From Betaproteobacteria bacterium (lineage in GTDB: Bacteria; Pseudomonadota; Gammaproteobacteria; Burkholderiales; Burkholderiaceae_C), in the NCBI GenBank assembly GCA_025358155.1, contig JANYKR010000039.1, positions 35,806-99,805 of the forward strand: DNA of 64,000 nucleotides. The letters run 5' to 3'. Position 1 is the stretch's first letter. Each line of letters opens with the position of its first letter. The position numbers and the translations under genes are program-made. This document shows positions 26,221 to 47,784 of this stretch, piece after piece. A model generated the notes under the pieces. It made no database searches and was not told where the DNA came from. It saw nothing but the letters and a program-made list of their open reading frames with translations.

Positions 26221-27207
26221 TCAGGGTGTGAGGAGCTGCATCCACAGCGCCACTTCGTCGATCAGCACCCACTCGCGCAGGATGCGGCTGCGGGCGTGGT
26301 CGACCTCGGCATGGGTGATGCCCAGAATCTCCACCGGCTGCTGTGTGGCCGGGCCAAAGCGCCCGCCGCCCGTGTGCTGGCCCACCAGACGCCAGCGCAT
26401 CGCCACCCGCGGTGTGCGGCCCGGATCGGTGCGCTCGGCCAGGCTGTCGATGAGCAGCGTGGCGCCGTTGAAGGCCGCCGTGTAGCCAAACCAGAAGGCT
26501 TCCGCTGCAGCCACGCCCACAGCTGCCTGTCCGTTGGGCAGTTGCAGGGCCACGGCTTCATCGGCATGGCGCTGCAACACCGCCAGATCACCCGCCCACA
26601 CGGCGCGGTAGGTGGCTGCCAGCAGCTGCGCGCCCGGGGTGTCGTGCAGCGGGTCGTGCCAATGCGCGGGCGGCGCGGGCTGCCACAGCGGCAGCGTGGG
26701 AGCGCCCCGGCCGCCAAGCCATGCCCGGGCCAGCGCTTGGGGGCTGCTGCCCAGCTGCAGCGCGATGGCGCCTTGGTCGCGCACCAGCCATTCATGCACG
26801 ATGCGGTTGCCTGCGCACACACAGTCAGCCACCGTGCGCACCTGCACCGGGCGGCCAGTGGCCGCACCGAAAACGCCGCCACCGCAGTGGGTCATGGTCG
26901 ATGCAATCCGGTGCGACGACAAGTAGCCCCCCGTTGCATCGCCAGCGCCGACGATGTCCTCGCACAACAGCCGCCGGTCCGGGAACTGGTGCAAGGTTTC
27001 AAGCGTGCCGCGTACCACGGCGCCAACCCCCTGGCTGGTGCCGCCTGGGCTGATGACGGCGCAGTCGGCGCTGTAGTAGCGGTGGATGGCGTCGACCTGC
27101 CGGCCCTCCCAGATGCGCGCGGTGATGACGCGGATGTAGTCGTCCAGGCTGCTGAATTCGGCATCAAACCCGGGCAAGGCCGGGTTGACCGTGCTGGGTG
27201 GGTTCAT
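26221..27207 (-). CDS. Tandem NTF2/SnoaL-like protein, subfamily A
   Basis: DDYIRVITARIWEGRQVD..YLSSHRIAS..VADCV..HEWLVRD plus second half ending EWVLIDEVALWMQL. Confidence 0.78.
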   Translation of the reverse strand: MNPPSTVNPALPGFDAEFSSLDDYIRVITARIWEGRQVDAIHRYYSADCAVISPGGTSQGVGAVVRGTLETLHQFPDRRLLCEDIVGAGDATGGYLSSHRIASTMTHCGGGVFGAATGRPVQVRTVADCVCAGNRIVHEWLVRDQGAIALQLGSSPQALARAWLGGRGAPTLPLWQPAPPAHWHDPLHDTPGAQLLAATYRAVWAGDLAVLQRHADEAVALQLPNGQAAVGVAAAEAFWFGYTAAFNGATLLIDSLAERTDPGRTPRVAMRWRLVGQHTGGGRFGPATQQPVEILGITHAEVDHARSRILREWVLIDEVALWMQLLTP

Positions 27208-28274
27208 GATCGCGGCAACCGGGCGGACGAGCGCAGCACCAGCCGGGTGGGCACCACCACATGATCACGGGTCACGGCGTCGTCTTCGAGTTGCTGCAGC
27301 AGCATCTGCACCGTGGCTTCGATCATCGGCACGGCGCTTTGCTCAACGGTGGTCAGGCGGTAAGCGCCCCAGGCGGCCTGGGGCACGTTGTCAAAACCGA
27401 CCACCGACACATCCTCGGGCACCCGCAAACCCAGTGCACCGCGCAAGGTGTCGATGGCCGCAAAGGCCATGTGGTCGCTGGCCACAAACAGCGCGTCGGG
27501 CCGCTCAGCGCTGGGCAGCATGCCGCCGAACAGCTCTTGGGTGGCCAACGCGGCGCGTTCGAATTCATAGTTGCCGACCGCGCGTGCCACCACCCGCAAG
27601 CCGCGTTCAGCCAGGCCGGCGCGCAAGCCTTCTTCACGGTCCTGGTTGGTGGATGAATCTTCGGCGCCCGCGATGTAGGCCACGCGCTGGTGCCCGGAAT
27701 CGGCCAGAAAGTGCGCCACCGCGCGGCCGCCGCCCAGGTTGTCCGAGCTGACGGTGCTGATGCTCCCCTTGAGGCTGGTGCGGTTGAACATCACCACCGG
27801 GATGCGGGCATCGGCAATTTGCTGCGCCAGCCCCGACGACAACTGCGTGGACGCCATCACGATGCCATCGACCTGGTAGCGCAGCAACTCGAGCAGCAGT
27901 TCGTCGGCGTCCTCGGTTTCGGTGATGAAGAGCAACACGTGGTAGCCGTCCTTCTGCAGCCGCTGCGACAGCGTCTCGATGACCACCGGGTAGAACTGGT
28001 TCTGCAGGTTCGACAGCACCACCGCGATCATGCGGCTGCGCTGCGAGCTGAGCGTACTGGCAATGGCGTTGGGCCGATAGCCCAGCTTGCGCGCCGCTTC
28101 CAGCACCCGCAGGCGCGTCTCAGGGGCGACGCTGGCCCCGGGGGTGAAGCTGCGGCTGACGGCAGACTGCGACACCTCGGCCAGGCGGGCCACGTCGTTG
28201 GACGTGATGCTGCGCCTGCCTGAGCCCAGGCCCGGGCCGGGGCGGCCTTTCGACGGGTTCAAGGGTTTGATCAT
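27204..28274 (-). CDS. LacI-family transcriptional regulator
   Basis: ITSNDVARLAEVSQSAVSRSFTPGASVAPETRLRVLEAARKLGYRPNAIA HTH; periplasmic-binding-like domain. Confidence 0.96.
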   Translation of the reverse strand: MIKPLNPSKGRPGPGLGSGRRSITSNDVARLAEVSQSAVSRSFTPGASVAPETRLRVLEAARKLGYRPNAIASTLSSQRSRMIAVVLSNLQNQFYPVVIETLSQRLQKDGYHVLLFITETEDADELLLELLRYQVDGIVMASTQLSSGLAQQIADARIPVVMFNRTSLKGSISTVSSDNLGGGRAVAHFLADSGHQRVAYIAGAEDSSTNQDREEGLRAGLAERGLRVVARAVGNYEFERAALATQELFGGMLPSAERPDALFVASDHMAFAAIDTLRGALGLRVPEDVSVVGFDNVPQAAWGAYRLTTVEQSAVPMIEATVQMLLQQLEDDAVTRDHVVVPTRLVLRSSARLPRS

Positions 28275-28431: not shown

Positions 28432-29532
28432 TCAATCGACGCTGATGTTGTTGGTCTTGATCAAGTCAGCAAACTTGACCGTCTCGTCCTGAATGAACTT
28501 GCGGAAACTCTCAGGCGACATGGGCTTGGGCGTGAAGCCCTGCGCTGCCAGCTTTGCCGTGGCGCCAGGGGAGTCCAGAACCTCGCCCACTTCCTTGTTC
28601 AGCCAGTTGACGACGGCTGCGGGTGTGCCCGCGGGCGCCAGCAAGCCGAGCCAGGTCACCGCTTCAAATCCCGGAACGCCTGACTCGGCCAGCGTCGGCA
28701 GATCGGGCCGCAGGCGAGAACGCACGCTGCTCGTGACCGCGAGCGCCCTGGCTTGGCCGTTCTGGGCAAAGGCCAGTGCGGTGCTCATGTTGTCGAACTG
28801 CATGTCGATCTGGTTGCCGGCCAGGTCGGCGAGCGACTGGCTGCTGCCCTTGTACGGAATGTGCAGCGCCCGTGCGCCGATGCGGTTGAGCAGCATCAGC
28901 ATCGTCAGGTGCTGCGATGTGCCGTTGCCGCTGGTGCCGTAGGACACGGCATCGGGCCGGGCCTTGAGCGCTGCCATCAGCGCTGGCACGGTTGTGATGC
29001 CCGACTTGTTGCTGGCCAGCAGCACCAGCGGCGTGCTGGCCAACTGGCTGATCGGCGCAAAATCCTTGTCGACGTTGTAGGCCAGCTTTTTCTGCAGCGA
29101 CGGGTTGACCGACAGCGCCGTCTGCGTGCCCAGCAACAGCGTGTAGCCGTCGGGCTTGGCCCTGGCCACCGCCTCGGTGCCGATGCCGCCGCCAGCGCCG
29201 GCCTTGTTGTCGACCAACACTGCCGTGCCCCAGCGCTTGCCGAGTTCTTCAGCCAGCAGACGGGCGATGATGTCGGTGGCGCCGCCGGGCGCAAACGGCA
29301 CCACGATAACGACGCGCCCGCCCTGCGGGTAGCCGGCAGGGCCCGGCGCAACCGCCAGCGCAACGGCCGGCGTTTGCGCCGCCACGGGGCCGCAAAGCAG
29401 GCTCAGCGCAGCGCAGGCAAGCGCGCCAGCGACCCCGCGCAAAAAGTGCGGGCGAGCCGTTGCCCTGGGCGCCGTTGCGGGTGGCGTGGTGCTGTGCATG
29501 AGGTTCTCGACCGCGTGGTGGGTTGTTGTCAT
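28432..29532 (-). CDS. Tripartite tricarboxylate transporter substrate-binding protein (Bug family)
   Basis: VVIVVPFAPGGATDIIARLLAEELGKRWGTAVLVDNKAGAGGGIGTEAVARAKPDGYTLLLG. Confidence 0.94.
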   Translation of the reverse strand: MTTTHHAVENLMHSTTPPATAPRATARPHFLRGVAGALACAALSLLCGPVAAQTPAVALAVAPGPAGYPQGGRVVIVVPFAPGGATDIIARLLAEELGKRWGTAVLVDNKAGAGGGIGTEAVARAKPDGYTLLLGTQTALSVNPSLQKKLAYNVDKDFAPISQLASTPLVLLASNKSGITTVPALMAALKARPDAVSYGTSGNGTSQHLTMLMLLNRIGARALHIPYKGSSQSLADLAGNQIDMQFDNMSTALAFAQNGQARALAVTSSVRSRLRPDLPTLAESGVPGFEAVTWLGLLAPAGTPAAVVNWLNKEVGEVLDSPGATAKLAAQGFTPKPMSPESFRKFIQDETVKFADLIKTNNISVD

Positions 29533-30527
29533 TCGGCCTGAATGCCGGCGTCCTGGATGACCTTGCCCCATTTGGCGATCTCGGCGCGCTGGAACGCACC
29601 GAAGGCCTCGGTCTGCCGGCCATCGGGTTCAACACCCAGGTTGCGCAGCTTGTCTTGCATGGCCGGCATGGCGACGATAGCTGCCAACTCGCGGCCCAGG
29701 CGATCGACGATGGCCTTGGGCGTCGCTGCGGGTGCAAACACGCCTTGCCAGGACTGCATTTCGAACTTGGGCGCGCCGGCCTCGGCCAGCGTGGGTATGC
29801 CGGGCAGGCTGGCCAAGTGCTGGCTGGAGGTCACGCCCAACACCTTCACGCGCTTGGCGTCGATCATCGGGCGCGCGGCGGCGATGGTCTCGAACACCAT
29901 GTCGATCTGGCCGCCGACCAGATCGACCATGGCCTGCGAGCCGCCCTTGTAGGGGATCTGCCGCATGCGGGTCTGCGTGATGCTCTGGAACAGCTGACCC
30001 GACAGGTGCTGGGAGGTGCCCGCCCCCGCCGTGCCGTAGGTCAGGCTGTCCGGCCTGGCCTTGAGTTCGGCGATCAGATCGGCCACCGAATTGAAGCGGC
30101 TGTCTGCCCGCACCACCAACGCATTGCTCACCATGCCCACCAATGCCACGGGCACAAAGTCGGCCAGCGGTTCATAGCCCAGGTTCTTGGTGAAGAAGGG
30201 GTTGACGGCATGGGTGGTGATGGTGCCGCCCATCAAGGTGTAGCCGTCAGGTGCCGACCTTGCGACCGACTGTGTGCCCATGATGCCCGACACGCCCGGC
30301 CGGTTGTCGACGACGATCGTCTGGCCCAGCCGCTCACCGAGTTGCTGGGCGATCAGCCGCGCCACCCCGTCAGACACGCCACCGGGCGAGAAGGGCACCA
30401 CGTACTTGATGGGCCTGGCAGGCCAGGCGGGGGTTTGCGCGTGGGCATTGCCTGGCGTGACGGCGGCCAGGCTGGCCAGGGACAAGGCCAAGCCCGTTAG
30501 CAGCCAGTGGCGGCGTCGGGTGTTCAT
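29529..30527 (-). CDS. Tripartite tricarboxylate transporter substrate-binding protein (Bug family)
   Basis: IKYVVPFSPGGVSDGVARLIAQQLGERLGQTIVVDNRPGVSGIMGTQSVARSAPDGYTLMGG; start inferred from signal peptide and RBS. Confidence 0.94.
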   Translation of the reverse strand: MNTRRRHWLLTGLALSLASLAAVTPGNAHAQTPAWPARPIKYVVPFSPGGVSDGVARLIAQQLGERLGQTIVVDNRPGVSGIMGTQSVARSAPDGYTLMGGTITTHAVNPFFTKNLGYEPLADFVPVALVGMVSNALVVRADSRFNSVADLIAELKARPDSLTYGTAGAGTSQHLSGQLFQSITQTRMRQIPYKGGSQAMVDLVGGQIDMVFETIAAARPMIDAKRVKVLGVTSSQHLASLPGIPTLAEAGAPKFEMQSWQGVFAPAATPKAIVDRLGRELAAIVAMPAMQDKLRNLGVEPDGRQTEAFGAFQRAEIAKWGKVIQDAGIQAE

Positions 30528-30568
30528 CGGGCGCTCCAGAGAGACAAAAAAGTTGAGGCGGCGCGTCA

Positions 30569-31366
30569 TCATGCTGCGGTCCAGCCCCCGTCCACCATCA
30601 AGGCTGAGCCGGTGACGAGGGCTGCGGCGTCACTGGCCAGAAACAGCACGGCACCCATCACGTCCTCGACCCGGCCGACCCGGCCCAGCGCAATCTTGCC
30701 CAGCACCTGCTCGCGAAAGGCCGGCGTGGCCAGCCAGTCGTGCGTCATTGGCGTGTCGATGAAGGTGGGGCAGACGGTGTTGACGCGGATGCCGTGGGGC
30801 CCCAGTTCAAGCGCGAGCGCCTTGCTCATGCCCTCCAGCGCGTGTTTGGTGGCGCAGTAGATGGTTCGGTTGGCGCCGCCCACATGGCCCATTTGCGACG
30901 ACATCTGCACGATGCTGCCCGGCAGCCCGGCTTGCTTGAGCCCGCTGGCCACCGCGCGGGCCACAAAAAAAGCGGCCTTGGTGTTGAGCGCCAGCAGGGC
31001 GTCTACATCGTCTTCGGTGACTTCGTCAAAGGGCTTGGGGCGGTTGCCGCCGGCGTTGTTGACCAGCACCTGAAACGGGCCGTGTTGGTGCGCGTGTGTG
31101 GCAAGGGTCTTGGCTACTGCGGCGGTGTCGGTCACGTCCAGTACCAAGGCATGGGCCTGGTCGCCACGCGCGCGCAGGGCCGATGCCGCGGCTTCGATTT
31201 CATCGGCACTGCGCGCGGCCAGCCAGACCTCGGCGCCGGCTTCGGCCAGCGCTGCGGCGCACGCCAGGCCCAGGCCGCGACCAGCGCCGGTGACCAGCGC
31301 GCGCCGGCCATCCAGGCGCAGGCTGGGCGTGCGAGGCAGCAGGGTGGTGAGGGGCAGGGCGGACAT
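30569..31366 (-). CDS. SDR family oxidoreductase
   Basis: GRRALVTGAGRGLGLACAAALAEAGAEV (TGxxxGxG), NNAGGN, YCATKHALEGMSKALALELGPHGIRVN. Confidence 0.95.
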   Translation of the reverse strand: MSALPLTTLLPRTPSLRLDGRRALVTGAGRGLGLACAAALAEAGAEVWLAARSADEIEAAASALRARGDQAHALVLDVTDTAAVAKTLATHAHQHGPFQVLVNNAGGNRPKPFDEVTEDDVDALLALNTKAAFFVARAVASGLKQAGLPGSIVQMSSQMGHVGGANRTIYCATKHALEGMSKALALELGPHGIRVNTVCPTFIDTPMTHDWLATPAFREQVLGKIALGRVGRVEDVMGAVLFLASDAAALVTGSALMVDGGWTAA

Positions 31367-31391
31367 GAGATGGCTTGGCAGCGGCGGTGGC

Positions 31392-32711
31392 TCAGTCTGC
31401 GGCCGGCACCGGCTGATACCAGGGCAGGTCGGGCTGATGGCCGTAGCGGCGCACCCGCAGGTTGGCCTGCTCGCCGTGGCCGGCGAAGTTTTCCATGTGG
31501 CACAGGCGCGAACAGACCGCGCCGATGGCGGCACTGGCTTCGTCGGTCAGCACACGCTGGTAGGTGCAGGTCTTCAAGAACTTGCCAACCCACAGGCCGC
31601 CGGTGTAGCGCGCGTTCTTGTTGGTGGGCAAGGTGTGGTTGGTGCCGATGACCTTGTCACCGAAGCTGACGTTGGTGCGCGGCCCCAGAAACAGCGCGCC
31701 GTAGTTCGTCATGCGCTGCAAGAACCAGTCGGGGTGTCGCGTCATCACCTGCACGTGTTCGCTGGCGATGCGCTCGGCCTCGGCCAGCATCTCGTCGTCG
31801 CTGTCGCAGACGATGACCTCGCCGTGTTCGGCCCAGGCTTGGGCAGCAATGCCGGCGGTGGGCAGGTGCTTGAGCTGTCGCTCCACTTCGGCCATCGTCG
31901 CGTGCGCCAGCTTTTCGCTGGTGGTCAACAGCACTGCCGGTGAGGTCGGACCGTGCTCAGCCTGGCCGAGAAGGTCGACCGCGCACATCTCGCCGTCCAC
32001 CGAGTCGTCGGCAATCACCAGGGTTTCGGTCGGGCCGGCAAACAGGTCGATGCCCACCCGGCCGTAGAGCTGGCGCTTGGCTTCGGCCACGAACATGTTG
32101 CCCGGGCCCACCAGCATGTCCACCGCCTTCACGCTTTGGGTGCCGATGGCCATGGCGGCCACGGCCTGCACGCCGCCCAGCACCAGGATCTGGTCAGCGC
32201 CTGCAAAGTGCATGGCCGTCACGATGGCCGGGTGCGGCGCACCCTGGTAGGGCGGCGCGGTGGCCACGATGCGCGGCACACCGGCCACCTTGGCGGTGAG
32301 CACACTCATGTGGGCCGAGGCGATGAGCGGGTATTTGCCGCCGGGCACGTAGCAGCCCACCGCGTTCATGGGGATGTGCTTGTGGCCCAGCACCACGCCG
32401 GGCAGGGTTTCAACCTCGACATCCCTCATCGAATCGCGCTGAATCTGCGCAAAGCCGCGCACCTGGGTCTGGGCGAACCGGATGTCTTCGATCTCGCGCG
32501 CACTCAGCTGCTTCACGGCCGCTTCGATGGCGGCTTGCGACAGCGTGAAGTCGGCCGGGTCCCACTGGTCGAACTGGCGTGAGTACTGGCGCACGGCGTC
32601 GTCGCCGCGGGCCTCGACATCGGCCAGGATGCCCTCGACGGTGGTGCGCACCTTGGCGTCGGCGGCGGCGTGGGCGGCGGCGCTTTGGCCGCGTTTGAGG
32701 TAACGGATCAT
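31392..32711 (-). CDS. Histidinol dehydrogenase-like protein (not in a his operon)
   Basis: [68 protein letters not shown]. Confidence 0.92.
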
Positions 32712-32808: not shown

Positions 32809-33879
32809 TCACCCGGGCCACCGCTTCAGGCCGGGATTGGCGGCGTAGCGCAGGTCGTCCAGCACATCCAGGCCGGCCTGTTGAAGGATGTGCAGCACAT
32901 CGATCATCACCCAGTTGTCGATGATTTTGCCGGCCCGGTCGGTGCGGTACCAATCGGCCACCCGCATCTCCACACGCTTGCCCGATGGCGCCAGCCCCAA
33001 CCACTGACCACCCAGGTGGGTGCCGTACAACGAGGGCCAGCCGGCCGTGACCGCAAAGTGCCCGTCGCCCAGCCGGATGTAGTGGCCGGGCGCGTCGGGG
33101 TTTTGAGCGCCGACGGTGGGGTCGCGCGCGATGCCTTCGCGGTCAGGAAAGGCCTGGATGAACAAGGCGCCGTGGTAGTCCAGGAAGCCGCGTTGACCGC
33201 GGCTGCTACCAATGCCGGCCGGGCCGTACCACATCATGTTTGGATGCCAGTGCGGGCTGTGGCGGTTGCGCGTGGCGCCCAGGTTCTTCAGCTCGTCGCC
33301 CTTGGCGAGGCCGAGCTGCATTTCGCGCACGTTTGCCAGCGTGGTGGCACCGAGTTCAAGGTCCACACTTTCGCCGGTAGCCCCACTGTCACAGGGCGGA
33401 AAGGCCCAGGCCTCGGCTGAGCCGGGCATGCGGCGGAACGGGTAGTGCCCGGCCTGGCGCATCAAGTCGACGATGTCGAGCAGCAGGTAGACCTTGGCGA
33501 TGCGGCCGTCGCGCACCACGGCATTGAGCCCGAAGCGCAGCGCGCACAGGCCCTGGGTGGCCGGGATACCCAGCCATGGCCGGGCCAGATTGCCCATCAG
33601 CACCCCCCAGGTGCTGACACAGTCGCGCCCTTCGTATTCACCGGCCAGCACACAGGCCATGCGGGCTTCCCAATCCGGGAAGGCCTCACGCAGCGGGCCC
33701 CAGAAGCGGGCAGCGGCTTCGGCGTTGCCGCTCAGATCGTTGAAGGGGTGGAAGACGCGCCAGACGCAGTCTGGGTGGCAGTGGGCGGCGAGCGCATCGT
33801 CGATGGCCGCGCCGTCGGCGTCCGACAGGCTTTGCAACAGCGCGGCCAGCAGGCGTTTGTGGTCGGTGTGGGGGTGCAT
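32809..33879 (-). CDS. Tandem NTF2/SnoaL-like protein, subfamily B
   Basis: [68 protein letters not shown]. Confidence 0.78.
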
Positions 33880-33883
33880 GGAT

Positions 33884-35389: not shown

Positions 35390-36180
35390 GGCGCAAAAAA
35401 GAACGCGAGCGCGGGCTCGGGCAGCGGGTCTGAGACAGCCAGCCGGCTGTGCACCACGCTGGCTTCGCCTGCACGCCTTGCAGTGGCCAGGGCCAGCCGC
35501 TGGTGGGCGCGGCGCGGCACGGCGTGCTGCTGCACGCGCAGGCTGTACAACACCGCCGCCTGGTCGCCCACGCTGAACGCACGCATCACCACCGCCTGGC
35601 TGCTGCTGGCGGCCGGCGACACGCCGGCAGCGGCAGGGACGGCAGTCTCAGCCAGTGCGGTTGTCGGGCCCAGCGAGGTCGGCGCGACCGCCGCAACTGC
35701 AGGCACCGTGAGCGCAGCGCTGCCGAGCAGCAGCAGATCGGGCCAGAACTCTGCTGCCAGGCCCGGGTGGTCTGCCGCATCGCCCACGCAGGGCACACGC
35801 AGCTGGCTGAGAAAGTCGTCGCGCGCCACCGGCACGGCGGCTTCTGGCTGGGCATCGGCGGCGGTTGAAGCAACCACCCACAGGCGGGTGAGCACGCCGT
35901 CAGCCAAATCGGCGAACACCCCGACGCAGCGGCCGTCATCGGTTTCATCGAGCACAGCCAGCGCCTGCGCCGACAGCAGCAAGTGGGGCAGGGCCGAGAG
36001 CACCAGCGGGTGGGTGGCAAACAGACCCAGCGCGTCGGTGCGGCCAAAGGTGGTGTGGCCGAAGGCCTCGACACGCAAGGTGTTGGCCACCGCGTCGGCT
36101 GCCGTGGCCTGGCCGACAAGCAGTGCCTTGAGCACCGCCATCAGGCCCGTCGGCGCCTGGGGTGCAAGCGCTGCGTTCAT
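35386..36180 (-). CDS. Hypothetical protein (264 aa), translationally coupled in the catabolic operon
   Basis: 4-bp overlaps with both neighbouring CDSs; no recognised family motif. Confidence 0.65.
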   Translation of the reverse strand: MNAALAPQAPTGLMAVLKALLVGQATAADAVANTLRVEAFGHTTFGRTDALGLFATHPLVLSALPHLLLSAQALAVLDETDDGRCVGVFADLADGVLTRLWVVASTAADAQPEAAVPVARDDFLSQLRVPCVGDAADHPGLAAEFWPDLLLLGSAALTVPAVAAVAPTSLGPTTALAETAVPAAAGVSPAASSSQAVVMRAFSVGDQAAVLYSLRVQQHAVPRRAHQRLALATARRAGEASVVHSRLAVSDPLPEPALAFFFAP

Positions 36181-37283
36181 GCTGAGCTCCCCACCGGCAA
36201 CGAAGCGCCCGAACCGCCCTGCACTTGCCTCAACACCGCGAGTTCGTCGAACACCGTTTGGTCGCGCACGATGCGGCCGTTACGAAGCACGTAATGGCTG
36301 CTGCCCGCGACCAGAATCTCTCGGCCTGTCGGCGGCCCCCAAGGCCCCGCGCCGCTGTGCAGGCCGCAGGCTGACCAGCGCAGCGCAACGGCCACTTCGC
36401 CGTTGGGCAAAGGCCGCGCGGCCCAGTGTTCGATGGCCAGGTCAAAGCGGCTCAACTGGGCCCGCAACTGCATCAGACAACCCACCCAATAGCCCCGGCC
36501 CCAGCCGTTGCGGCCGGTGGGCCACGCCACCTCGATGCTGGGTGACACCTGGCTTGCGGCCTCGCCGTACAGGTCGTCGCACCAGGCGGCGTGCAGCAGA
36601 CGCGCCGGGCCGTGCGCCGGGTGTGTGCTGTCGGGCCAGGTTTGCGAGAAGCCGCGCACCTTGGCAATCCACTGCTGCCGCCAGGCGTGCCGGGCGGGGT
36701 CACCTTGGCGATCCGCTTCAGCCTGCGCCTGTGCCACGGCGGCCGGCGCATGCTGCATCTGCAGTGCCGCGCGGGCGTTGTCGCGGAACAGCCATTCTTC
36801 GACGATCAGGTTCTCACGCACCACGCAGTCGGCCACCGTGGTGGCCATTTGCGCGCGGCCGGTGGCCTGGCCGTACGCGGCGTCGGTGCCTTCGAGCGTG
36901 GAGCGGCTGGTGATGCGGTGCGATGAGTAAAACAGGCCTGGGGCGTCCTCGCTCCAGATCACGTCGTCGGCAATCACTTGTCGGTCTGCATACGCTGCCA
37001 GCGCACCCAAGGTGCCTTGCACGACATTCTCCAGCCCGCTGCTCGGGCCGTTCAAGGTGTGCATGACGCAGGCGTCGGCGTAGTGCGTGCGGCACAAGCC
37101 GACGTTTTTTTCTTCCCAGATGCGGTGGGTGCAGCGCACGATGTAGTCGACGATGTCGCTGTACACCGGCTCGAAGCCGACCAGCGCCTGGCGGCGGGGA
37201 CGCAACGCCAAGAGTTCGGTGGCGGTGCGGCCGGCCGGTGAACGCACCTCGGGCAATTGGTCCCAGGACTGTGGGGGCGTCAT
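36177..37283 (-). CDS. Tandem NTF2/SnoaL-like protein, subfamily A
   Basis: DIVDYIVRCTHRIWEEKNVG..FYSSHRITS..ATGRAQMATTVADCV..EEWLFRDNARAALQM; second half ending DQTVFDELAVLRQV. Confidence 0.78.
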   Translation of the reverse strand: MTPPQSWDQLPEVRSPAGRTATELLALRPRRQALVGFEPVYSDIVDYIVRCTHRIWEEKNVGLCRTHYADACVMHTLNGPSSGLENVVQGTLGALAAYADRQVIADDVIWSEDAPGLFYSSHRITSRSTLEGTDAAYGQATGRAQMATTVADCVVRENLIVEEWLFRDNARAALQMQHAPAAVAQAQAEADRQGDPARHAWRQQWIAKVRGFSQTWPDSTHPAHGPARLLHAAWCDDLYGEAASQVSPSIEVAWPTGRNGWGRGYWVGCLMQLRAQLSRFDLAIEHWAARPLPNGEVAVALRWSACGLHSGAGPWGPPTGREILVAGSSHYVLRNGRIVRDQTVFDELAVLRQVQGGSGASLPVGSSA

Positions 37284-37341
37284 AAGTTGCACCGCGCGCG
37301 GCACCTTTCGGGTTGGATGATCAGCGGCGGCATGGGCGCGC

Positions 37342-38655
37342 TCATGCCCACGGACGGTTGCGTCGCAGGTTGCGCACGAGGCTTCCGTAGGCATTGAGGC
37401 TGGGTTTGGGCGTCCTCACGAAGGTCTTGCGATCGACCGCCACGAGCCCGAAGCGCGGGACATAGCCCGACGACCATTCGAAGTTGTCGAGCAAGCTCCA
37501 GTGCAGGTAGCCCTGCACCGGGAGGCCTGCGGCGATCTCGGCCTCCAGACCGCCGATGGCCGAGCGCAGGTGCTGGATGCGCTGCGCGTCGTCGTTTGTG
37601 TTGTTGCCGTGCTCCGTGACGAAGATCGGCACCTTGGCGTGTGTGTAGGCCTCGCGCACCACGGCAGCCAAGGCGCCGGGTGGGGTGGGATAGCCGAACA
37701 TGTCCTTCATCGCATCAGCGGGTGCGGGCAGGTAGTCCCCGGCGCCGGTTTCGAATTTGTTGTAGGTCTGCACACCCAGGAAGTCGTCGCTCGATGCTGC
37801 CGCGTAAAACGGCGCCCGTGCCTCGGCAAAGATGCGTCGGTACAGCGCCTCGCCGCCGGTACCCGGCGTCAGTTCCTGCAGGGCCAGCGTCATGCCGACG
37901 CGGGCATGGGGAATCGCCGCCTTGATCGCGTCCCGGCCCTTGGCGTGCGCGGCCAGGCAGACGTCACGCACCTTGAAGCTGTCGCCAAGAAAGTACATGT
38001 GGAAACGGTCGGACCCGACAGCCCGCGCCGCCGCTGCACGCAACCCCGGCTCTGCGGCCCAGGGCTTGCGCTGCAAAACCTTTGACGTGACCTGCGCGTT
38101 CGGTTCGTTCATCGTGCAGAACCAGTCGACGACGCCTGAGAGCGTACGCGCGGTGGCTTCGGCGTAGCGCGCAAATCGGTCAACTACCGCAAAGTCTTCC
38201 CATCCGCCCATGGCGGCGACCCAGCGCGGGCTGCTGAAGTGGTGCAGCGTGACCACAGGGGTGATGCCCGCCTCCAGGCAGGCCACGCAGATGCGTCGGT
38301 AGTGGGCAAGCGCAGCGTCGGAGAACTCCCCCGGTTCTGGCTCGATGCGCGCCCATTCAACCGAGAATCGATAGCTGTTGAGCCCTGCCGACCGGATCAG
38401 CGCAATGTCCTCACGCCAACGACTCAAGCTGTCACAGGCGTCGCCTGAGGGTTCCTTGAAGTACGTGCCGGGCACATGCTCCATGACCCAGTAATCGCTG
38501 TTGACATTGCCGCCTTCGATCTGGTGGCCAGCGGTGGCCACACCCCAAAGAAAGCGAGGACTCGCGCCAACCCGGGTGCGAGCGAGCGCGGGAGTGCTTG
38601 CGACCCCGACCCCGGCCAACAAGGCGACACGGCGGTCGAAACCCGCCGGTGTCAT
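37342..38655 (-). CDS. Glycoside hydrolase family 1 (beta-glucosidase-like), Tat-like signal
   Basis: FLWGVATAGHQIEGGN..GLNSYRFSVEWARIEPEPG..CTMNEPNA (acid/base) ..PIFVTEHGNN (nucleophile region)..LHWSLLDNFEWSSGY. Confidence 0.94.
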   Translation of the reverse strand: MTPAGFDRRVALLAGVGVASTPALARTRVGASPRFLWGVATAGHQIEGGNVNSDYWVMEHVPGTYFKEPSGDACDSLSRWREDIALIRSAGLNSYRFSVEWARIEPEPGEFSDAALAHYRRICVACLEAGITPVVTLHHFSSPRWVAAMGGWEDFAVVDRFARYAEATARTLSGVVDWFCTMNEPNAQVTSKVLQRKPWAAEPGLRAAAARAVGSDRFHMYFLGDSFKVRDVCLAAHAKGRDAIKAAIPHARVGMTLALQELTPGTGGEALYRRIFAEARAPFYAAASSDDFLGVQTYNKFETGAGDYLPAPADAMKDMFGYPTPPGALAAVVREAYTHAKVPIFVTEHGNNTNDDAQRIQHLRSAIGGLEAEIAAGLPVQGYLHWSLLDNFEWSSGYVPRFGLVAVDRKTFVRTPKPSLNAYGSLVRNLRRNRPWA

Positions 38656-39749
38656 GCGCGGTACGCCTGCACCAAAGCGCCGATCTCGTCGAAGATCATC
38701 CAGTGCTCGACCACCCGTGCGCCGCACAGGCGCAGGTGGCTCATGCCCATCAGCGCGACAGGCTTGTGCTCGGGGCACGCCCCCAGCAGCGAGCCGGCGC
38801 GGCTGGTGCCTTCCAGCCGCCAGCGCACGGCCACGATCACGCCGTCGGTCTCGTCGGAGTGGCACACATGCTCGACATGCATGGTGGCGTCGGGCAGGGC
38901 GGCCATGATCATCAGCATCAGCGCCGCCTGGTTGCGCAAGCCGGCGGCCACGCGGCCACCGCCGGCGTGGCAGATGGAATCGGTGCTGAAATACAACGCC
39001 AGGCGGTCCAGCCGGCGCTGGTTCCAGAGCTGGTCGAACATCACCCGCGCCCAGGCTTCGACGCTGTCGTCGGCCAGCGCCAACGGCAGGCGCGGCGCCT
39101 GGCCCAGCAGGGCGGTGTGCGGTGAATTGACACGCTGATCGACCGGCGCGCGGGCGGCCACCTGGCGCGCCACTTCGTTTGCATCCAGCCCCAGTTGACG
39201 CACCATGGCGCCGTTGTCGCGCACCAGCCATTCGGTGTGCACGACATTGCCTCGGGTCACGCAGTCGGCCACAAAGTGGACAGCGATGCGCTTGCCGGTG
39301 GCCGGCCCCCAGCCCGAAGGCCCGCGGTTGGTCGAGCGACTGAAGCCCAGGTGCGAGCTGTAGTAGCCTGCGCTGTCGTCACCGCTCCAGGCCACGTTCA
39401 GGTGGTGCAGTTCGCCGTCTGGAAAGGCATTGAGCGTTGACACTGTCGAGGCGACCACTTCTTCAACCGAGCGCACCACGCCGTAAGACGAGTAAATGGT
39501 GCAGGCGTGGTCATAGGTCTCGTAGATGCGCCCCACCGCGCGGTCGACCCAGATCTCCTCGGTGATGCGGACGATGAAGTCGACGATGTCGGCATAGCCC
39601 TCGTCGAAGCCCGCCATGGGCTGCAAGCGGGCCGGCTTGACAGCGCGCAAGACCTGGGGGTCGACTTGCCGCACCCGAGTGACCTGCGGGCGCGGCGGCA
39701 AGTTGAACGGCAGCTCATCGAGCCTTGGGTTGGGGCGTGCTTCAGTCAT
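38652..39749 (-). CDS. Tandem NTF2/SnoaL-like protein, subfamily A
   Basis: DIVDFIVRITEEIWVDRAVG..YYSSHLGFS..GPATGKRIAVHFVADCV..TEWLVRDNGAMVRQ; second half ending EHWMIFDEIGALVQAY. Confidence 0.78.
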   Translation of the reverse strand: MTEARPNPRLDELPFNLPPRPQVTRVRQVDPQVLRAVKPARLQPMAGFDEGYADIVDFIVRITEEIWVDRAVGRIYETYDHACTIYSSYGVVRSVEEVVASTVSTLNAFPDGELHHLNVAWSGDDSAGYYSSHLGFSRSTNRGPSGWGPATGKRIAVHFVADCVTRGNVVHTEWLVRDNGAMVRQLGLDANEVARQVAARAPVDQRVNSPHTALLGQAPRLPLALADDSVEAWARVMFDQLWNQRRLDRLALYFSTDSICHAGGGRVAAGLRNQAALMLMIMAALPDATMHVEHVCHSDETDGVIVAVRWRLEGTSRAGSLLGACPEHKPVALMGMSHLRLCGARVVEHWMIFDEIGALVQAYRA

Positions 39750-39792
39750 GCGGCAAGGGCTGCGAAAAAATCATCAGGCGGGATGCATGGGG

Positions 39793-39808
39793 ATGCATAC
39801 GGGTGCAA
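39793..39808. promoter_or_regulatory. Putative LacI-family operator (imperfect)
   Basis: ATGCATACGGGTGCAA in the divergent intergenic region; shares TGCATACG half-site with 43900-43919. Confidence 0.5.
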
Positions 39809-39874
39809 AGTGTAGCCAATGCTGGCCCTGCATTGGGTCATTTTGATTAGGGTTAGCAGCAATGACTTGCAGCG

Positions 39875-39890
39875 GTGAATTCGTATGCAA
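39875..39890. promoter_or_regulatory. Putative LacI-family operator (imperfect)
   Basis: GTGAATTCGTATGCAA, central CG; right half is reverse complement of TTGCATAC. Confidence 0.5.
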
Positions 39891-39933
39891 TGCTGCTACC
39901 TGAAAGTCCCGCCAACGACCTCCTGGAGGATCC

Positions 39934-42666
39934 ATGACTGTCCGTTTGAGCCCCCCCAGCCGATTTCGGTTGCTGTTGTTGTCTTCTGCCGTGCTCAGCA
40001 CCTTTGCTGTTGCGCCCCCGGCCAACGCTCAAGACACCCCCAAAGCCGGTGACAAGCCCGACCCGGAGGTGATCGTCATTACCGCGCAGCGCCGCTTCGA
40101 GCCGCTGCAGGAGGTGCCGCTGTCGGTGTCTGCAATTTCGGGCAGCCAGCTCAAGAACGCCAACGTCACCACGGCCGACCGGCTTGAGCAGCTTGTGCCC
40201 GGCCTGCGCATGGGGCGTTCGGGGTCGGACCTGCGGCCCGCCATGCGCGGCACCTACACCGAAAACGTGTCGGCCAACGGTGACCCGCGGTTTGGCATTT
40301 ATGTGGACGATATCTACCAGTCGCGCACCAGCCAGGTTCCGCCCATCGTCGACCTCGCTCGCGTCGAGGTGCAAAAGGGCCCGCAAGGCACGCTGTACGG
40401 TCGCAACAGCTTTGGCGGCAACATCGTTTTCCACTCCGCCGCGCCAACCGACAAGTTCGAAGGCGGCATCGACCTGTTGGCGAGCAACTTCAGCCACACC
40501 CGCGCCGAAGGCTTCGTGAACATGCCGATCGCCGATGGCATTGCGCTGCGCGTGGCAGGCTTGGCGGAGAGCTCCAAGGGCTACGTCAAGAACATCGGCA
40601 CGGGCAACGACTACGGTGGCGAGACGCAAAAGTTCATCCGCGGCACGCTGCGCATCGACCCGGCCTCGGTGCCGGGGCTGAGGGTAGACGTGCGCGCGTC
40701 CTACCTCGATCTTGGCGGTCAGGGCCTGGGCGGTTTTGGCTACAAGATCCTGGGCACGCTGGTTGACCCCAGCTTGATCCGCACACCCGGCAGCCCGTTG
40801 ACCTACAACGGCGTCACCTACCAGTTGCCCAACGGCTTCAACGGCAACAGCTGGACGGGTACGGGCTACCCCATCGACACCCGGTTTCGGGATGGCATTC
40901 CGGATGTCAATGGCGCCGACATCGGCATCCCCACCAACAGCGACCCCTACAAGGTCAACTACGCGGGCAACATCTTCCGCAAGGGCTCGCAGCAGCAGTA
41001 CGGCGCAACCGTCAGCTACGACGTCGGGTCGGTGCGGCTGCGTTCCATCACCAGCTACACCGATTTCGATCTGATCCGCACGGGCGGCAGCCTGACGCCG
41101 GTGCTGCTGAATTACGCGTATGCCCAGACCCTGACCAAGACCATCACGCAAGAACTGCAGATCTTGTCGAATGACGACGAAAAGACGCCGCTGAACTGGA
41201 TTGTTGGCGGCTACTACTTCAATGACACGGCAAGCGACCGCAGTACCGTCATCACCGACCGCAGCTACGTCACCGCCACGGCGCCGGTGGGGCAGCAGTA
41301 CTACCCCTTCGGCTTCAGCTACCTGCCTTCAGGGACCGGCTTCAACCAGACATCCACGGGCGACACCTTCAGCGCAAATCAGCAAAAGACGCGCTCGCTT
41401 GCGGCCTATGGCCAACTGTCCTACACCTTGTTTGACAAGCTGACCTTGACAGGGGGGGTGCGCCACACCCGCGATGAGAAAGATGTTCTGGCATCACGCT
41501 TCAACAAGAGCTTGGCCGGGAGTTACTTCAATCTCAGCATCAATGATCCGGTTGACTACCGCTGCGGTGGCTTTGTGGCCGCCAATACGGCTACGGTTGC
41601 CGGGCCAACGGCCACGGTGGCGGACGCCTACAACTTTGTGTGCGCCAACAACAGCATCAGCTATTCCACCTACCGCCTTGCGGCGGACTACAAGCTCGAC
41701 CGTGATCACATGGTGTATGCGAGCTATTCAACAGGCATACACGCCGGCGGCTTCAACACCGGGGCGGTCAACGTCAATGGCGTGCCAACCTTGCTGCCTT
41801 TTGCGCCCGAGAAGGTCAGGGCCTTCGAGGTGGGATCAAAGAACACCTTCCTCAACCGGATGGTGACCTTGAATGCCGCTGCCTATGTCAACGACTACAC
41901 CGACTTGCACGCGCAGACCTCGATTCCCAACCCCAATGCCCCCCTGACCAGCGTGATCGCGCTGGTTCAGAACATCGGCAAGGACCGCGCGGTTGGTTTT
42001 GACCTGGACGCTGTGATTCGGCCCGCCAAAGACCTGCGCATGACGCTGGCCTACAACTGGTTGGACGCCAAGCAGCTCGACTACGCCGTCAACACCTTCA
42101 ACTACGGTGGCGGTGCCAGCCTCTGTGGTGTCACGCCGAGCTGCATCGCGGCCACGGGTGAAGCCAACACCGTGCAAGGCACCCCGTTCCCGAATGCGCG
42201 AACCGATCCGAACCGGTTCATCCCTGTGCTCGATGCCAACGGCGCGCAAATCGTCGTGGGCGGTGTGCCTCAGGTTCGCTACGTCATTGCCGGTACCGGG
42301 CGCGACGGCACCAAGTACACCTCGCGCAAGGCCTTCTCGCCCAAGCAGACGTTCCAGATCGGCTTTGCCTATGACTTCTCCTTGGGCAGTGCCGGCACGC
42401 TGACGCCAGAAGTCCAGACCTACTACAACTCTGGCTACATCCTGACCGATCTGACACCCGACTACGGCAACAACCCTGCCTACACCAAGACCGATCTGCG
42501 GCTGACCTACCGCAATGCGGATGGCAAGTTCAGCCTGCAGGCCTTTGTCAACAACCTCGAAGACAAGGCCATCATCACCCGTGCCGTCTACACCAACCAC
42601 CGTGCCCTGTTGGTGAACTACGCGCCGCCGCGCAGTTTCGGTCTGAATATGGGTTATCGCTTCTAA
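39934..42666 (+). CDS. TonB-dependent receptor
   Basis: Signal peptide; plug VIVITAQRRFEPLQEVPLSVSAIS..VDLARVEVQKGPQGTLYGRNSFGGNI; C-terminal GLNMGYRF. Confidence 0.96.
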   Translation: MTVRLSPPSRFRLLLLSSAVLSTFAVAPPANAQDTPKAGDKPDPEVIVITAQRRFEPLQEVPLSVSAISGSQLKNANVTTADRLEQLVPGLRMGRSGSDLRPAMRGTYTENVSANGDPRFGIYVDDIYQSRTSQVPPIVDLARVEVQKGPQGTLYGRNSFGGNIVFHSAAPTDKFEGGIDLLASNFSHTRAEGFVNMPIADGIALRVAGLAESSKGYVKNIGTGNDYGGETQKFIRGTLRIDPASVPGLRVDVRASYLDLGGQGLGGFGYKILGTLVDPSLIRTPGSPLTYNGVTYQLPNGFNGNSWTGTGYPIDTRFRDGIPDVNGADIGIPTNSDPYKVNYAGNIFRKGSQQQYGATVSYDVGSVRLRSITSYTDFDLIRTGGSLTPVLLNYAYAQTLTKTITQELQILSNDDEKTPLNWIVGGYYFNDTASDRSTVITDRSYVTATAPVGQQYYPFGFSYLPSGTGFNQTSTGDTFSANQQKTRSLAAYGQLSYTLFDKLTLTGGVRHTRDEKDVLASRFNKSLAGSYFNLSINDPVDYRCGGFVAANTATVAGPTATVADAYNFVCANNSISYSTYRLAADYKLDRDHMVYASYSTGIHAGGFNTGAVNVNGVPTLLPFAPEKVRAFEVGSKNTFLNRMVTLNAAAYVNDYTDLHAQTSIPNPNAPLTSVIALVQNIGKDRAVGFDLDAVIRPAKDLRMTLAYNWLDAKQLDYAVNTFNYGGGASLCGVTPSCIAATGEANTVQGTPFPNARTDPNRFIPVLDANGAQIVVGGVPQVRYVIAGTGRDGTKYTSRKAFSPKQTFQIGFAYDFSLGSAGTLTPEVQTYYNSGYILTDLTPDYGNNPAYTKTDLRLTYRNADGKFSLQAFVNNLEDKAIITRAVYTNHRALLVNYAPPRSFGLNMGYRF

Positions 42667-42674
42667 ACACCGCG

Positions 42675-43742
42675 CTAACCATCGCGCAGGCGGGCCAACA
42701 GGTCAACGTCCATCTGCAGCATCAAGTGCGGCAGGTCGATCAAGACCCAGTTCTCGGTCAGCAGCGTGCCGTCGTTGCGCCACCAGTCCATCACGCGCAT
42801 GTTGATGGGCTCGCCGGTGGCCTTGACGCCCAGGTAGTCGCCCAGGAAAGTGCCACGCACGCTGGGCCAGCCGGTCGAGCCCACGTAAGCCCCTTCGGCG
42901 ACGCGCGCGCGGTGGCCGCGCGGCAAGTGGTGGGGGCTGCCACGGTCAGGAAAGGCGTGCAGGAACGGCGCCTGGTGGTGGCGCTGGAAGCCGCCCACGC
43001 CACGCATGCTGCCGATGCCGCCGGGCCCGTACCACATCATGTTCGGATGCCAGTAGCGCGGCATGTCCATCGAGTCGAGGTTCTTGCCGTCAAAGCGCCA
43101 CAGCCCGGTGAACATCTCCAGCGTCAGCCGCATGCTTTCGAGCCCCAGCGCCGGGTCGGTGGGGCCTAGCAGCAAGCCGTCGTGCGGGGCCGGGCCGGGT
43201 ACCAGCCATTCGAGCCCGCTGCTGGGCGGCAGGATACGGCGCCCGGCCTGGCGCGCCAGATCGACGATGTCCAGCAACACCCGCGCCTCGGTGATCCGGC
43301 CCACGCCGTCGGGGCCTGGTTGCCAGCGGTAGAACTCACCAAAGCGCAAGGCTGCCGGCTCGCCGGTAGCCGGAATGCCCAGCCACGGCTGCTTGAAAGT
43401 GCCCAGGTAGTGGCCGGTGGTCGTGACCCACCACCCCTCACCGCGCAACTCGGGCGGTGCATGGCCCACCACGCCGGGCGGCGGGCTGATCCATTCGCCG
43501 CCGAAGAACAGGTCGGTGCGGCGCTCGAGGTCTGGAAACGCCGCCTGCAGCGGCGCGTAGAACTGCTCAGACACTGCCGCAGGCCCGACCAGCTCGTTGA
43601 AGGGATGCGACACAAACCAGGACGCATCGGGCGCCAGCTGGTCGCGTAGCGCTGCGGCCGCGTCGGGGCCGGGCAGCCGCTGCAACAGGCGCCAGACATC
43701 GCACTTCATTTGTGCCAGCGTGGAATCGGGTTTGCTTGTCAT
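42675..43742 (-). CDS. Tandem NTF2/SnoaL-like protein, subfamily B
   Basis: [79 protein letters not shown]. Confidence 0.78.
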   Translation of the reverse strand: MTSKPDSTLAQMKCDVWRLLQRLPGPDAAAALRDQLAPDASWFVSHPFNELVGPAAVSEQFYAPLQAAFPDLERRTDLFFGGEWISPPPGVVGHAPPELRGEGWWVTTTGHYLGTFKQPWLGIPATGEPAALRFGEFYRWQPGPDGVGRITEARVLLDIVDLARQAGRRILPPSSGLEWLVPGPAPHDGLLLGPTDPALGLESMRLTLEMFTGLWRFDGKNLDSMDMPRYWHPNMMWYGPGGIGSMRGVGGFQRHHQAPFLHAFPDRGSPHHLPRGHRARVAEGAYVGSTGWPSVRGTFLGDYLGVKATGEPINMRVMDWWRNDGTLLTENWVLIDLPHLMLQMDVDLLARLRDG

Positions 43743-43899
43743 CGCTTGGGGGTCGGTTGCAGGTTCGGGATTGAGGCATGCGGCATGCGGCTTGCGGCTG
43801 TCAGCTGCATGGATCGTGCATCCATTGCGTGCGTCCGCTTGTCGGCGCAAAGCCACACGGCAGCGAGCTCAGGGTTTCTAGCAAGTCGATTTTGCGCGG

Positions 43900-43919
43900 G
43901 ATTGCATACGCTTGCAATC
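43900..43919. promoter_or_regulatory. Putative LacI-family operator
   Basis: GATTGCATACGCTTGCAATC: 7-bp inverted arms GATTGCA/TGCAATC around a central ACGC core with CG axis. Confidence 0.65.
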
Positions 43920-43975: not shown

Positions 43976-46624
43976 ATGACGATGACAAATGCCTCCCGCT
44001 TGATGCCCACGCCGCTGTCCCGCGCTGTGGCGTTGGCCTTTGGTGCCTGGGGCTTGATGGGGGCCGGTGCGGCGTTGGCGCAGGCCGCCCCGGCCGCTGC
44101 GGCGGCCGACAGCGGCCAGCTCGGCACCGTCACCGTCACCGCCACTCGCCGCATTGAAGACCAGCAAAAGGTCAGCACCTCGGTCACTGCCTTGTCGGCC
44201 GAGAAGCTGGCCGAGCGCAACATCTACGACATCTCGCAGCTCGAAGGCCTTTCACCAGGCTTCACTTTTGGCCGTTCGGGCTCCGATGCGCGCCCGGCGA
44301 TGCGCGGTGTGCGCACCGAGGCCGTGCAGCAAAACGCCGACACCACCATCGGTTTCTTCATCGACGGCATCTACAAGAGCCGGCCCAGCCAGGCCTTGGC
44401 CAGCTTTGTCGACCTGGAGCGCGTCGAGGTCCAGCGGGGCCCGCAAGGCACGCTGTTCGGGCGCAACACCTTTGGCGGCAACATCGTGTTGACGACCGCG
44501 CGGCCCGAGCTCGGCGAAACCAGCGCCGAAGGCAGTGTGCTGCTGGGCAGCTTCAAGCGATTGCGCGTGGAGGCGGTAGGCAATATCGCGGTGGCGCCCA
44601 CGGTGGCCTTGCGGCTGGCCGGTGCGGTGGACAAGTCCGACGGCTACGTGAAGAACGACTTCAACCCGGCGGCCGACCTGTTCGACCAGGACTTGCGCTA
44701 TTTCCGGGCGTCAATGCGCTTCAAGCCCGACAACCGCTTCGACGCCTTCATCAAGCTCGACAGTACCGAGCAGCGCGGCAACGGCGCCGGTGGCTTCAGC
44801 TATTTTCAGAGAGGCACCTATCTCAACAACACCTGCCGGCCGCTGCTGAACAGCACCTTTTACGCGCTCAACGGCCGGGGCGGCTTGGCCGACGGTGTGG
44901 CCGACTGCACCCGCACCCAAGCCAGCCCAGGGGGTGCCGTTGGCAGCACGGCCGATGTGGGCCGGCCGATCTACAGCCCAGGCAATGTGTGGCGGGTCGA
45001 GAACGACTACCAGTCGCAGCTGAAGCTGTCCGACATGAGCTTCACGGCCGATGTCTCCTACCGATTCGATACCGCCACGGTCAAGTCCATCACCGGTTTT
45101 TCTGATTTCTCCGTGCTGCGCACCGTTGACCAGGACTTCTCGCGCGAAGCCATTGCCATCAGCTACGAGCGCACCAAGAACAAGAGCTTCTCGCAAGAGC
45201 TGCAGGTGTTGTCAGAAGGCGCCGGACCCCTGGGGTACGTGGCCGGCGTCTACTTTTTCAAGGACAAGACCGACAACCTGGCCGTTTTCCAGTCGCTGCG
45301 CCGATCGGTGGGCAATGGCACCGCCGACACGGCGGTGTCAGAAACCGAATCCACCGCCGCTTACGGGCAGCTGAGTTTTGCGGTGAATGACGACCTCAAG
45401 CTCACCGCTGGCATGCGCTACACGGTAGACAAGAAAAAGTACAAGTTCGCCAACCGCAACTCGGTGGTGCCGGTCAGCGCCAACCTGGCCGACCCGGACC
45501 CGGTCTTCACGTCGCTGGACAACCTGGTGGCGGGCTCGGCGGCTTTTGGCAACGCCGGCGTCACCAATTGCGCCGCGACGGTGTTTCCCGCTGCTTCGGG
45601 TCCGGTCTTGGGCGCCAACTGCGGCGGGGTGGGCAACAACACGTTTTATGGCGCCACCTACACCCCCGTGGAGTTCAAGCGAACCACAGGCCGCCTGGCC
45701 GCCGAGTACAACCTGAGCAAGAGCCAGTTGCTCTACATGAGCTACAGCACCGGCTTCAGCTCGGGTGGTTTCAACGGCAGTCAGGCCGCCTTGAACACCG
45801 AGGCCACACGCACCTTCAATCCGCAAGAGGTCGCGGCTATCGAGATCGGCTCGAAGAACCGTTTCTTGAACAACACCTTGCAGGTCAACGTGGCGGCGTT
45901 TGCCAACCGCTACACCAACCAGCAAGAACAGCGCCAGGTGCCGGTAGGCCTGACCACGGCGTCGTTGCTGTTCAATGCCGCCAAGTCCAAGGCCAACGGC
46001 GTCGAGCTTGAAGGTGAATGGCGTGTCAACCGCCAGCTGACGCTGGGCGGCACCTTGTCGCTGCTGGACGCCAAGTACACCAGCTTCCCGGACGCGCCTG
46101 GCCCCATCGCCATCACCCAGCTCATCGACACCCCGGGCACGGCGGCCACGGTCGTGAATGGCGTGACCATCGCGCCGGCCGGGCAAACCCGCGTCTACGC
46201 GCCCGGCTACAACTGCGGCTTGATCAACGGCACGGGCGTCAACGGCGTGCCCCAGGCATTTGGCTGCAACCTGACCGGCAACAAGATCCCGTACGCGGCC
46301 AACACCTCGGGCTCGGTGTCTGCGGCCTATTCCATTGGCCTGGGCAGCATGGGTAGCATCACGCCGATGGTGGTGGTCAACTTCAACAGCGGCTACTACG
46401 GTCAGATTTACAACGTGGAGGCAGAAAAGCAAGGGGCCTTCACCAAGACCGACCTGAAGCTGAACTGGAAGATCAACGACGGCTTGAACATGCAGGCCTT
46501 CGTGGACAACGTCAGCAACACGGTGGTGATCAACCGCTTTGTCTGGGGCGGCGGCAGCACCATGCAAAACAGCGCCGCAGCGCCGCGCACCTTCGGCGTG
46601 AAGCTCGGCTATCGCTTCTTCTGA
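43976..46624 (+). CDS. TonB-dependent receptor (paralogue of the 39934 receptor)
   Basis: GTVTVTATRRIEDQQKVSTSVTALS..VDLERVEVQRGPQGTLFGRNTFGGNI; C-terminal GVKLGYRFF. Confidence 0.96.
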   Translation: MTMTNASRLMPTPLSRAVALAFGAWGLMGAGAALAQAAPAAAAADSGQLGTVTVTATRRIEDQQKVSTSVTALSAEKLAERNIYDISQLEGLSPGFTFGRSGSDARPAMRGVRTEAVQQNADTTIGFFIDGIYKSRPSQALASFVDLERVEVQRGPQGTLFGRNTFGGNIVLTTARPELGETSAEGSVLLGSFKRLRVEAVGNIAVAPTVALRLAGAVDKSDGYVKNDFNPAADLFDQDLRYFRASMRFKPDNRFDAFIKLDSTEQRGNGAGGFSYFQRGTYLNNTCRPLLNSTFYALNGRGGLADGVADCTRTQASPGGAVGSTADVGRPIYSPGNVWRVENDYQSQLKLSDMSFTADVSYRFDTATVKSITGFSDFSVLRTVDQDFSREAIAISYERTKNKSFSQELQVLSEGAGPLGYVAGVYFFKDKTDNLAVFQSLRRSVGNGTADTAVSETESTAAYGQLSFAVNDDLKLTAGMRYTVDKKKYKFANRNSVVPVSANLADPDPVFTSLDNLVAGSAAFGNAGVTNCAATVFPAASGPVLGANCGGVGNNTFYGATYTPVEFKRTTGRLAAEYNLSKSQLLYMSYSTGFSSGGFNGSQAALNTEATRTFNPQEVAAIEIGSKNRFLNNTLQVNVAAFANRYTNQQEQRQVPVGLTTASLLFNAAKSKANGVELEGEWRVNRQLTLGGTLSLLDAKYTSFPDAPGPIAITQLIDTPGTAATVVNGVTIAPAGQTRVYAPGYNCGLINGTGVNGVPQAFGCNLTGNKIPYAANTSGSVSAAYSIGLGSMGSITPMVVVNFNSGYYGQIYNVEAEKQGAFTKTDLKLNWKINDGLNMQAFVDNVSNTVVINRFVWGGGSTMQNSAAAPRTFGVKLGYRFF

Positions 46625-46632
46625 GACCCGTC

Positions 46633-47784
46633 ATGCCGTCTTCCCGCACAAGCCCCCACACCACCCGCCTGGCGACCACCCACGTCGGCAGCCTGCCGCG
46701 CAGCCAACCCGTGGTCGACCAGATCTTTGCCCTCGAAAAGGGTGAGCCGGTGGACGAAGCCCGCTTCGACGCCATCATGGCCAAAGCCATCGACGACTGC
46801 GTGGCGCGGCAGGTGGCTGCGGGGGTGGACATCGTCAGCGATGGCGAGATGAGCAAGATCAGCTACGCCACCTACATCAAGGATCGCTATACCGGCTTTG
46901 ACGGCGACAGCCCCCGGCGCACCCCGGCTGACCTGACCGACTTCCCCGGTTTCATGGACCGTCTGCGCAGCAGTGGCGGCACGCCCACCTACCGCAGGCC
47001 TTGCTGCGTGGGCCCGATTGCGGTCAAGACGCTGGCGCCGCTGCACAAGGACATCGCCCACTTGAAGGCCGCTGCGGCCCGGCATGGCGCGGCGCAGATG
47101 TTCATGAACGCGGCTTCACCAGGCGTGGTGGCGCTGTTCCAGCCCAACCAGCACTACGCCGACGACGATGCCTACCTCGAAGCGCTGGCGCGTGCGCTGC
47201 GGCATGAGTACCACGCCATCGTCGATGCGGGCCTGATCCTGCAGATCGACTCGCCTGATCTGGGCCTGGGTCGGCACATGATGTTCAAGGAGCTCGATGA
47301 CGCGGCCTACCTGACGCGCATTCAAAAGCACATCGAGGCGCTGAACTTTGCCCTGGTGGCCTTGCCGGCCGACCGCTTGCGCATGCACGTTTGCTGGGGC
47401 AACTACGAGGGCCCGCACCACAAGGATGTGCCACTGGCCACCCTCCTGCCCACGGTGCTGAAAGCCAAGCCGCAGGGCCTGTTGTTCGAGACCGCCAACC
47501 CGCGCCACGGGCATGAGTGGGCCACCATCCGCGACATGCAAGCGCTCATTCCGCAGGACAAGGTGTTGATCCCTGGCGTGCTCGACACCACCACCAACTT
47601 CATTGAACACCCTGAGTTGATTGCCCAGCGTCTGCAGCGCTTCGTTGACATCGTCGGCGCTGACCGGGTCATTGCCGGCAGCGACTGCGGCTTTGGCACC
47701 TTTGCCGGCTTTGGCGCGGTGGACGAGGACATCGTCTACGCCAAGCTGGCAGCCATGGCGCAAGGTGCGCAGCGCGTGACTTGA
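46633..47784 (+). CDS. Cobalamin-independent methionine synthase (MetE C-terminal)-like protein
   Basis: TTHVGSLPRS..QVAAGVDIVSDGEMSKISYATYIKDR..DSPDL..HVCWGNYEGPHHKDV..LIPGVLDTTTNFIEHPELIAQRL..DCGFGTF. Confidence 0.9.
   Translation: MPSSRTSPHTTRLATTHVGSLPRSQPVVDQIFALEKGEPVDEARFDAIMAKAIDDCVARQVAAGVDIVSDGEMSKISYATYIKDRYTGFDGDSPRRTPADLTDFPGFMDRLRSSGGTPTYRRPCCVGPIAVKTLAPLHKDIAHLKAAAARHGAAQMFMNAASPGVVALFQPNQHYADDDAYLEALARALRHEYHAIVDAGLILQIDSPDLGLGRHMMFKELDDAAYLTRIQKHIEALNFALVALPADRLRMHVCWGNYEGPHHKDVPLATLLPTVLKAKPQGLLFETANPRHGHEWATIRDMQALIPQDKVLIPGVLDTTTNFIEHPELIAQRLQRFVDIVGADRVIAGSDCGFGTFAGFGAVDEDIVYAKLAAMAQGAQRVT

Follow-up and report, generated by a model that had tools for sequence, protein, structure and literature searches.

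The window (the entire 64-kb stretch of DNA that was analyzed) carries two TonB-dependent receptor genes, receptor 1 (39934-42666, plus strand) and receptor 2 (43982-46624, plus strand), in a cluster with a histidinol-dehydrogenase-like (HDH) gene (31392-32711, minus strand), an adjoining short-chain dehydrogenase (SDR) gene (30569-31369, minus strand; start approximate), two TctC substrate-binding proteins (28432-30572, minus strand), and a LacI-family regulator (27204-28274, minus strand). GH1-like and GPH-symporter-like genes are also present in the cluster and hint at a glycoside as the substrate. The cluster also encodes five proteins of the SnoaL (NTF2-like) type, the majority with two domains (26221-27207, 32809-33883, 36177-37284, 38652-39749, and 42675-43742). 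An NCBIfam search with two of these five yielded no model, and a solved-structure search with one of them returned weak matches only. The tandem SnoaL gene at 38652-39749 (minus strand) heads the minus-strand cluster; that at 42675-43742 (minus strand) is the NTF2-like gene that had been predicted to diverge from receptor 2, and it was confirmed as such. Behind receptor 2 lies a MetE-like (Meth_synt_2) gene (46633-47784, plus strand), an adjacency that is kept in relatives; the two genes are probably co-transcribed. The receptor-2 gene had been given a start at 43976. The gene itself stands, but its ATG is better placed at 43982, because a relative (G046) keeps the GGAG and the ATG at 43982, not the ATG at 43976.

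Between receptor 2 and the divergent SnoaL gene, a palindrome with 7-bp arms and a CG axis had been predicted, and the 20-mer GATTGCATACGCTTGCAATC (hereafter operator 1; no strand assigned) was found exactly at 43900-43919. Its 7+7 bp arms are perfect and its CG center is paired (8 of 10 pairs). The distance to the receptor-2 start codon is 62 bp, and that to the divergent SnoaL start is 157 bp. The window has 15 palindromes with such 7+7 bp arms around a 6-bp spacer; the palindromic shape alone is thus little proof, and the proof lies in the sequence. With three or fewer mismatches allowed, no second match to GATTGCATACGCTTGCAATC turned up in either the window (0 expected) or the genome (5.1 Mb). 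Sites in the window were scored with a weight matrix trained exclusively on sites of other species, and operator 1 received 27.5 bits; in 40 simulated 64-kb windows, the maximum averaged 11.3 bits and the highest value was 19.9 bits. Pattern searches, not the weight matrix, were used for the genome-wide ranking. As a genome-wide element, the palindrome CTAGGGTTTNCCCTAG showed no excess over a reversed control (27/27 vs. 28/35). No sigma-70-like promoter was recognized in a search near operator 1.

The form of the site is that of the LacI family, most of whose sites are even palindromes with a CG center located 30-140 bp before a start (PMC4052901). Operator 1 is an even palindrome within the 16-22 bp range and has a central CG, the dinucleotide that occupies positions 10-11 in 98% of the matrix training sites. 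It lies 62 bp before the ATG at 43982, inside the 30-140 bp interval (PMC4052901), and it is conserved in relatives alongside the genes and regulator. The comparative evidence supports the LacI-type reading that was originally proposed.

A search of the window with the symmetrized core TTGCATACGTATGCAA, which is also the operator consensus across copies and has the central CG, located two companion sites (neither assigned a strand), both in the 184-bp divergent gap between receptor 1 and the SnoaL gene at 38652-39749. Operator 2 (CGGTGAATTCGTATGCAATG, 39873-39892) is found 41 bp before the receptor-1 start and scores 21.1 bits; the weaker operator 3 (GGATGCATACGGGTGCAAAG, 39791-39810) lies 41 bp from the start codon of the SnoaL gene leading the minus-strand cluster and scores 14.9 bits. 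Operators 1, 2, and 3 hold ranks 1-3 of the weight matrix in the window, although the score of operator 3 alone falls inside the chance range, and its support comes mainly from its position and from site pairs upstream of this gene's counterparts in Roseateles violae (G035) and Pelomonas sp. Root405. The original prediction had described a half-site near receptor 1; a related site is indeed present there, but there are actually two.

Conservation was assessed upstream of receptor-2 orthologs. All 10 orthologous upstream regions that were compared share a 14-bp core, TGCATACGCTTGCA, without a single change and in one orientation; some of these regions belong to closely related genomes and so do not represent ten independent lineages. 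The flanks of this core have diverged (average column conservation of 0.59 and 0.49), and the receptors in relatives are 52-83% identical to receptor 2 of the window. A check for loss of the palindrome in relatives having the same genes found no case of loss. That the palindrome arose by chance and is functionless, as the 15 palindromes with such arms in the window might suggest, is hardly credible in the face of its score and context, and the conservation at orthologous positions rules it out. From the comparison of sequences, the palindrome very probably serves as a genuine control switch and is a conserved candidate docking site for a LacI-family protein. An asymmetric form of the operator is the rule before receptor 2, and HDH sites are usually closer to the perfect palindrome; in one genome (G038), the asymmetric form precedes both HDH and receptor 2. 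Operator-type sites also precede orthologs of the SnoaL gene at 42675-43742 in the absence of any receptor.

The proposed binder is the regulator at 27204-28274, which has a LacI helix-turn-helix (HTH) and a periplasmic-binding-protein-like sensor (PF00356 and PF13377, both above cut-offs). It is one of three genes in the genome with a LacI HTH. Compared with the named NCBIfam types (RbsR, CytR, GntR, PurR, and others), it fell far below all cut-offs. Its recognition helix, VSQSAVSR, is invariant in 13 LacI orthologs. The 15.6 kb that separate the gene from operator 1 are a point against the assignment.

Among 200 further family genomes, 12 contained an ortholog of this regulator. Four of the 200 contained a receptor-2 ortholog, which was always close to an ortholog of the LacI gene. 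All 13 family genomes that have the regulator (the 12 and the window genome) also have the motif, vs. 10 of 188 that lack the regulator (Fisher p = 1.2e-14). The ten genomes with a motif match have no LacI ortholog at the cut-off used, and those that were inspected mostly have no cluster. A match on one contig (C293) was rejected as a member of the regulon; it is inside a fatty-acid-desaturase/alkane-monooxygenase-like coding sequence (the family was judged from the sequence itself) and was taken as chance. In another genome (G083), two TctC orthologs on a separate contig, unlinked to the cluster, still carry a perfect 16/16 site.

A second collection comprised 80 named LacI-ortholog loci that were gathered via alignment of the LacI protein, a few of which come from genomes that are also in the 200-genome set. 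At a threshold of at least 13 of 16 matches, 103 sites were found in these loci, with about 3 expected and 0-4 in simulated sequence. Some loci had no site within 10 kb, partly because the cluster extends past the fetched DNA. For 115 sites of both operator classes, the nearest start was that of HDH in 63 cases, SnoaL in 13, and receptor 2 in 5 (sites in divergent gaps were counted for the nearer gene). The sites are typically about 20-65 bp upstream of the HDH and receptor start codons. A dyad count in 53 HDH upstream regions, which presupposed no motif, recovered the same element: TTGCAT-N4-ATGCAA occurred in 28 regions, and the next unrelated dyad in at most 6. In three Variovorax loci (L117, L120, and L122; about 7844-7891), two perfect operators are located 26 bp apart before HDH, a spacing suggestive of two dimers binding cooperatively. 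Computation established the existence and placement of the site as well as its conservation and its co-occurrence with the LacI gene.

The form of the operator also follows the HTH of the regulator. LacI proteins with Leu at the start of the HTH (TLSDVA/TLADVA; L160, L161, L164, L167, and L171) are accompanied by GCAANCGNTTGC operators and those with Ser or Ala by GCATACGTATGC operators, with one exception. This covariation favors a direct recognition of the motif by LacI, but the sequences behind it are few and from a single clade, and most of them have a different recognition helix as well. The pair GCATACGTATGC and GCAANCGNTTGC could possibly constitute a natural specificity switch. Other families also bind palindromes of this length, and an unlinked regulator (e.g., of the GntR or IclR type) might accordingly serve the same clusters through this site; such an arrangement is improbable, because the motif follows LacI both from genome to genome and in its place in the cluster, its form varies with the LacI HTH, and its even length and CG center are the usual ones for LacI-family sites.

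We consider it highly likely that the palindrome is the operator of the LacI protein encoded at 27204-28274, which would repress receptor 2 as part of one regulon spanning the whole cluster. In the proposed mechanism, a LacI dimer would recognize a pair of half-sites of the TTGCATACG type and place its hinge helix at the central CG. The bound protein would repress receptor 2 together with the MetE-like gene that follows, and probably the divergent SnoaL gene too. The same LacI would act at the sites at 39791 and 39873, which would place the two receptors, the SnoaL genes, and the minus-strand catabolic/transport cluster in one regulon. In Burkholderiales, the regulator appears to control an entire set of genes for uptake and breakdown. 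A single regulon for the two receptor/NTF2 pairs had been predicted; the comparative data favor it, but its scope is wider and takes in the whole HDH/SDR/LacI/transport cluster. A metabolite derived from the imported compound would presumably cause release. Binding by LacI, the inducer, and the substrate are what we infer here, as is the sign of the regulation: repression is most likely, because the sites are about 20-65 bp before starts and because it is usually the ligand-free protein that binds DNA in the LacI family, whose members are mostly ligand-released repressors (PMC4052901).

A block with the sequence AGGGTTT (43871-43877, plus strand) precedes the operator core by about 32 bp. It is partly conserved; in the receptor-2 promoters, the AGGGTTT-like block has an invariant G at two columns. 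It may be the site of a second regulator or a promoter element. AGGGTT is also found before receptor 1 (39849-39854), TAGGGTTTTCC is found before a Pelomonas operator (L196), and AGGGTTT often occurs 15-16 bp upstream of the core in HDH promoters. The conserved block makes the promoter layout not simple, and a few LacI-family members do bind DNA with ligand, so LacI might activate from this site or co-repress with a ligand instead of acting as a plain inducible repressor. This is unlikely: a protein bound about 20-65 bp before the starts would hinder polymerase, and regulators of the family are mostly ligand-released repressors (PMC4052901). The analysis turns a visual guess into a defined regulon that comprises a single regulator, a single motif, and a set of co-regulated genes. 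Membership in it is the best lead to the targets of the SnoaL-like and HDH-like enzymes and of both receptors, and the operator could be used as a reporter in a search for the inducer.

Among solved structures, DHPS-3-dehydrogenase HpsN (PMC11382572) is closest to the HDH-like protein, ahead of histidinol dehydrogenases. His126 of HpsN recognizes the sulfonate (PMC11382572); the corresponding position is Leu or Met in the HDH-like protein of the window and in all 53 orthologs that were read. A DHPS substrate is thus not supported for this enzyme, and DHPS catabolism was ruled out as the pathway of the cluster by the missing His126. The enzyme, whose gene is the commonest operator target in relatives, appears to belong to an uncharacterized subgroup near HpsN.

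A literature search for the consensus TTGCATACGTATGCAA or for the gene set of the cluster found nothing relevant. The LacI recognition code was worked out for the TVSR group (PMC2978694); the helix of the window LacI reads AVSR and is outside that group. The prospects are evenly balanced for the broadest reading, namely a LacI regulon not previously described, widespread in Burkholderiales and with relatives in some other proteobacteria, that would control TonB-receptor uptake and a new HDH-like/SnoaL breakdown pathway, and whose GCATACGTATGC-to-GCAANCGNTTGC switch would extend the recognition code beyond TVSR. The arrangement resembles the Xanthomonas CUT loci for carbohydrate scavenging, in which receptor genes are reported to stand beside catabolic genes and a regulator (PMC1790865); the window cluster differs in having HDH-like, SDR, and tandem SnoaL genes at its center. 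With the local regulons of the LacI family (PMC4052901) it shares the even, CG-centered palindrome, a LacI gene inside the regulated cluster, and paired sites at several promoters.
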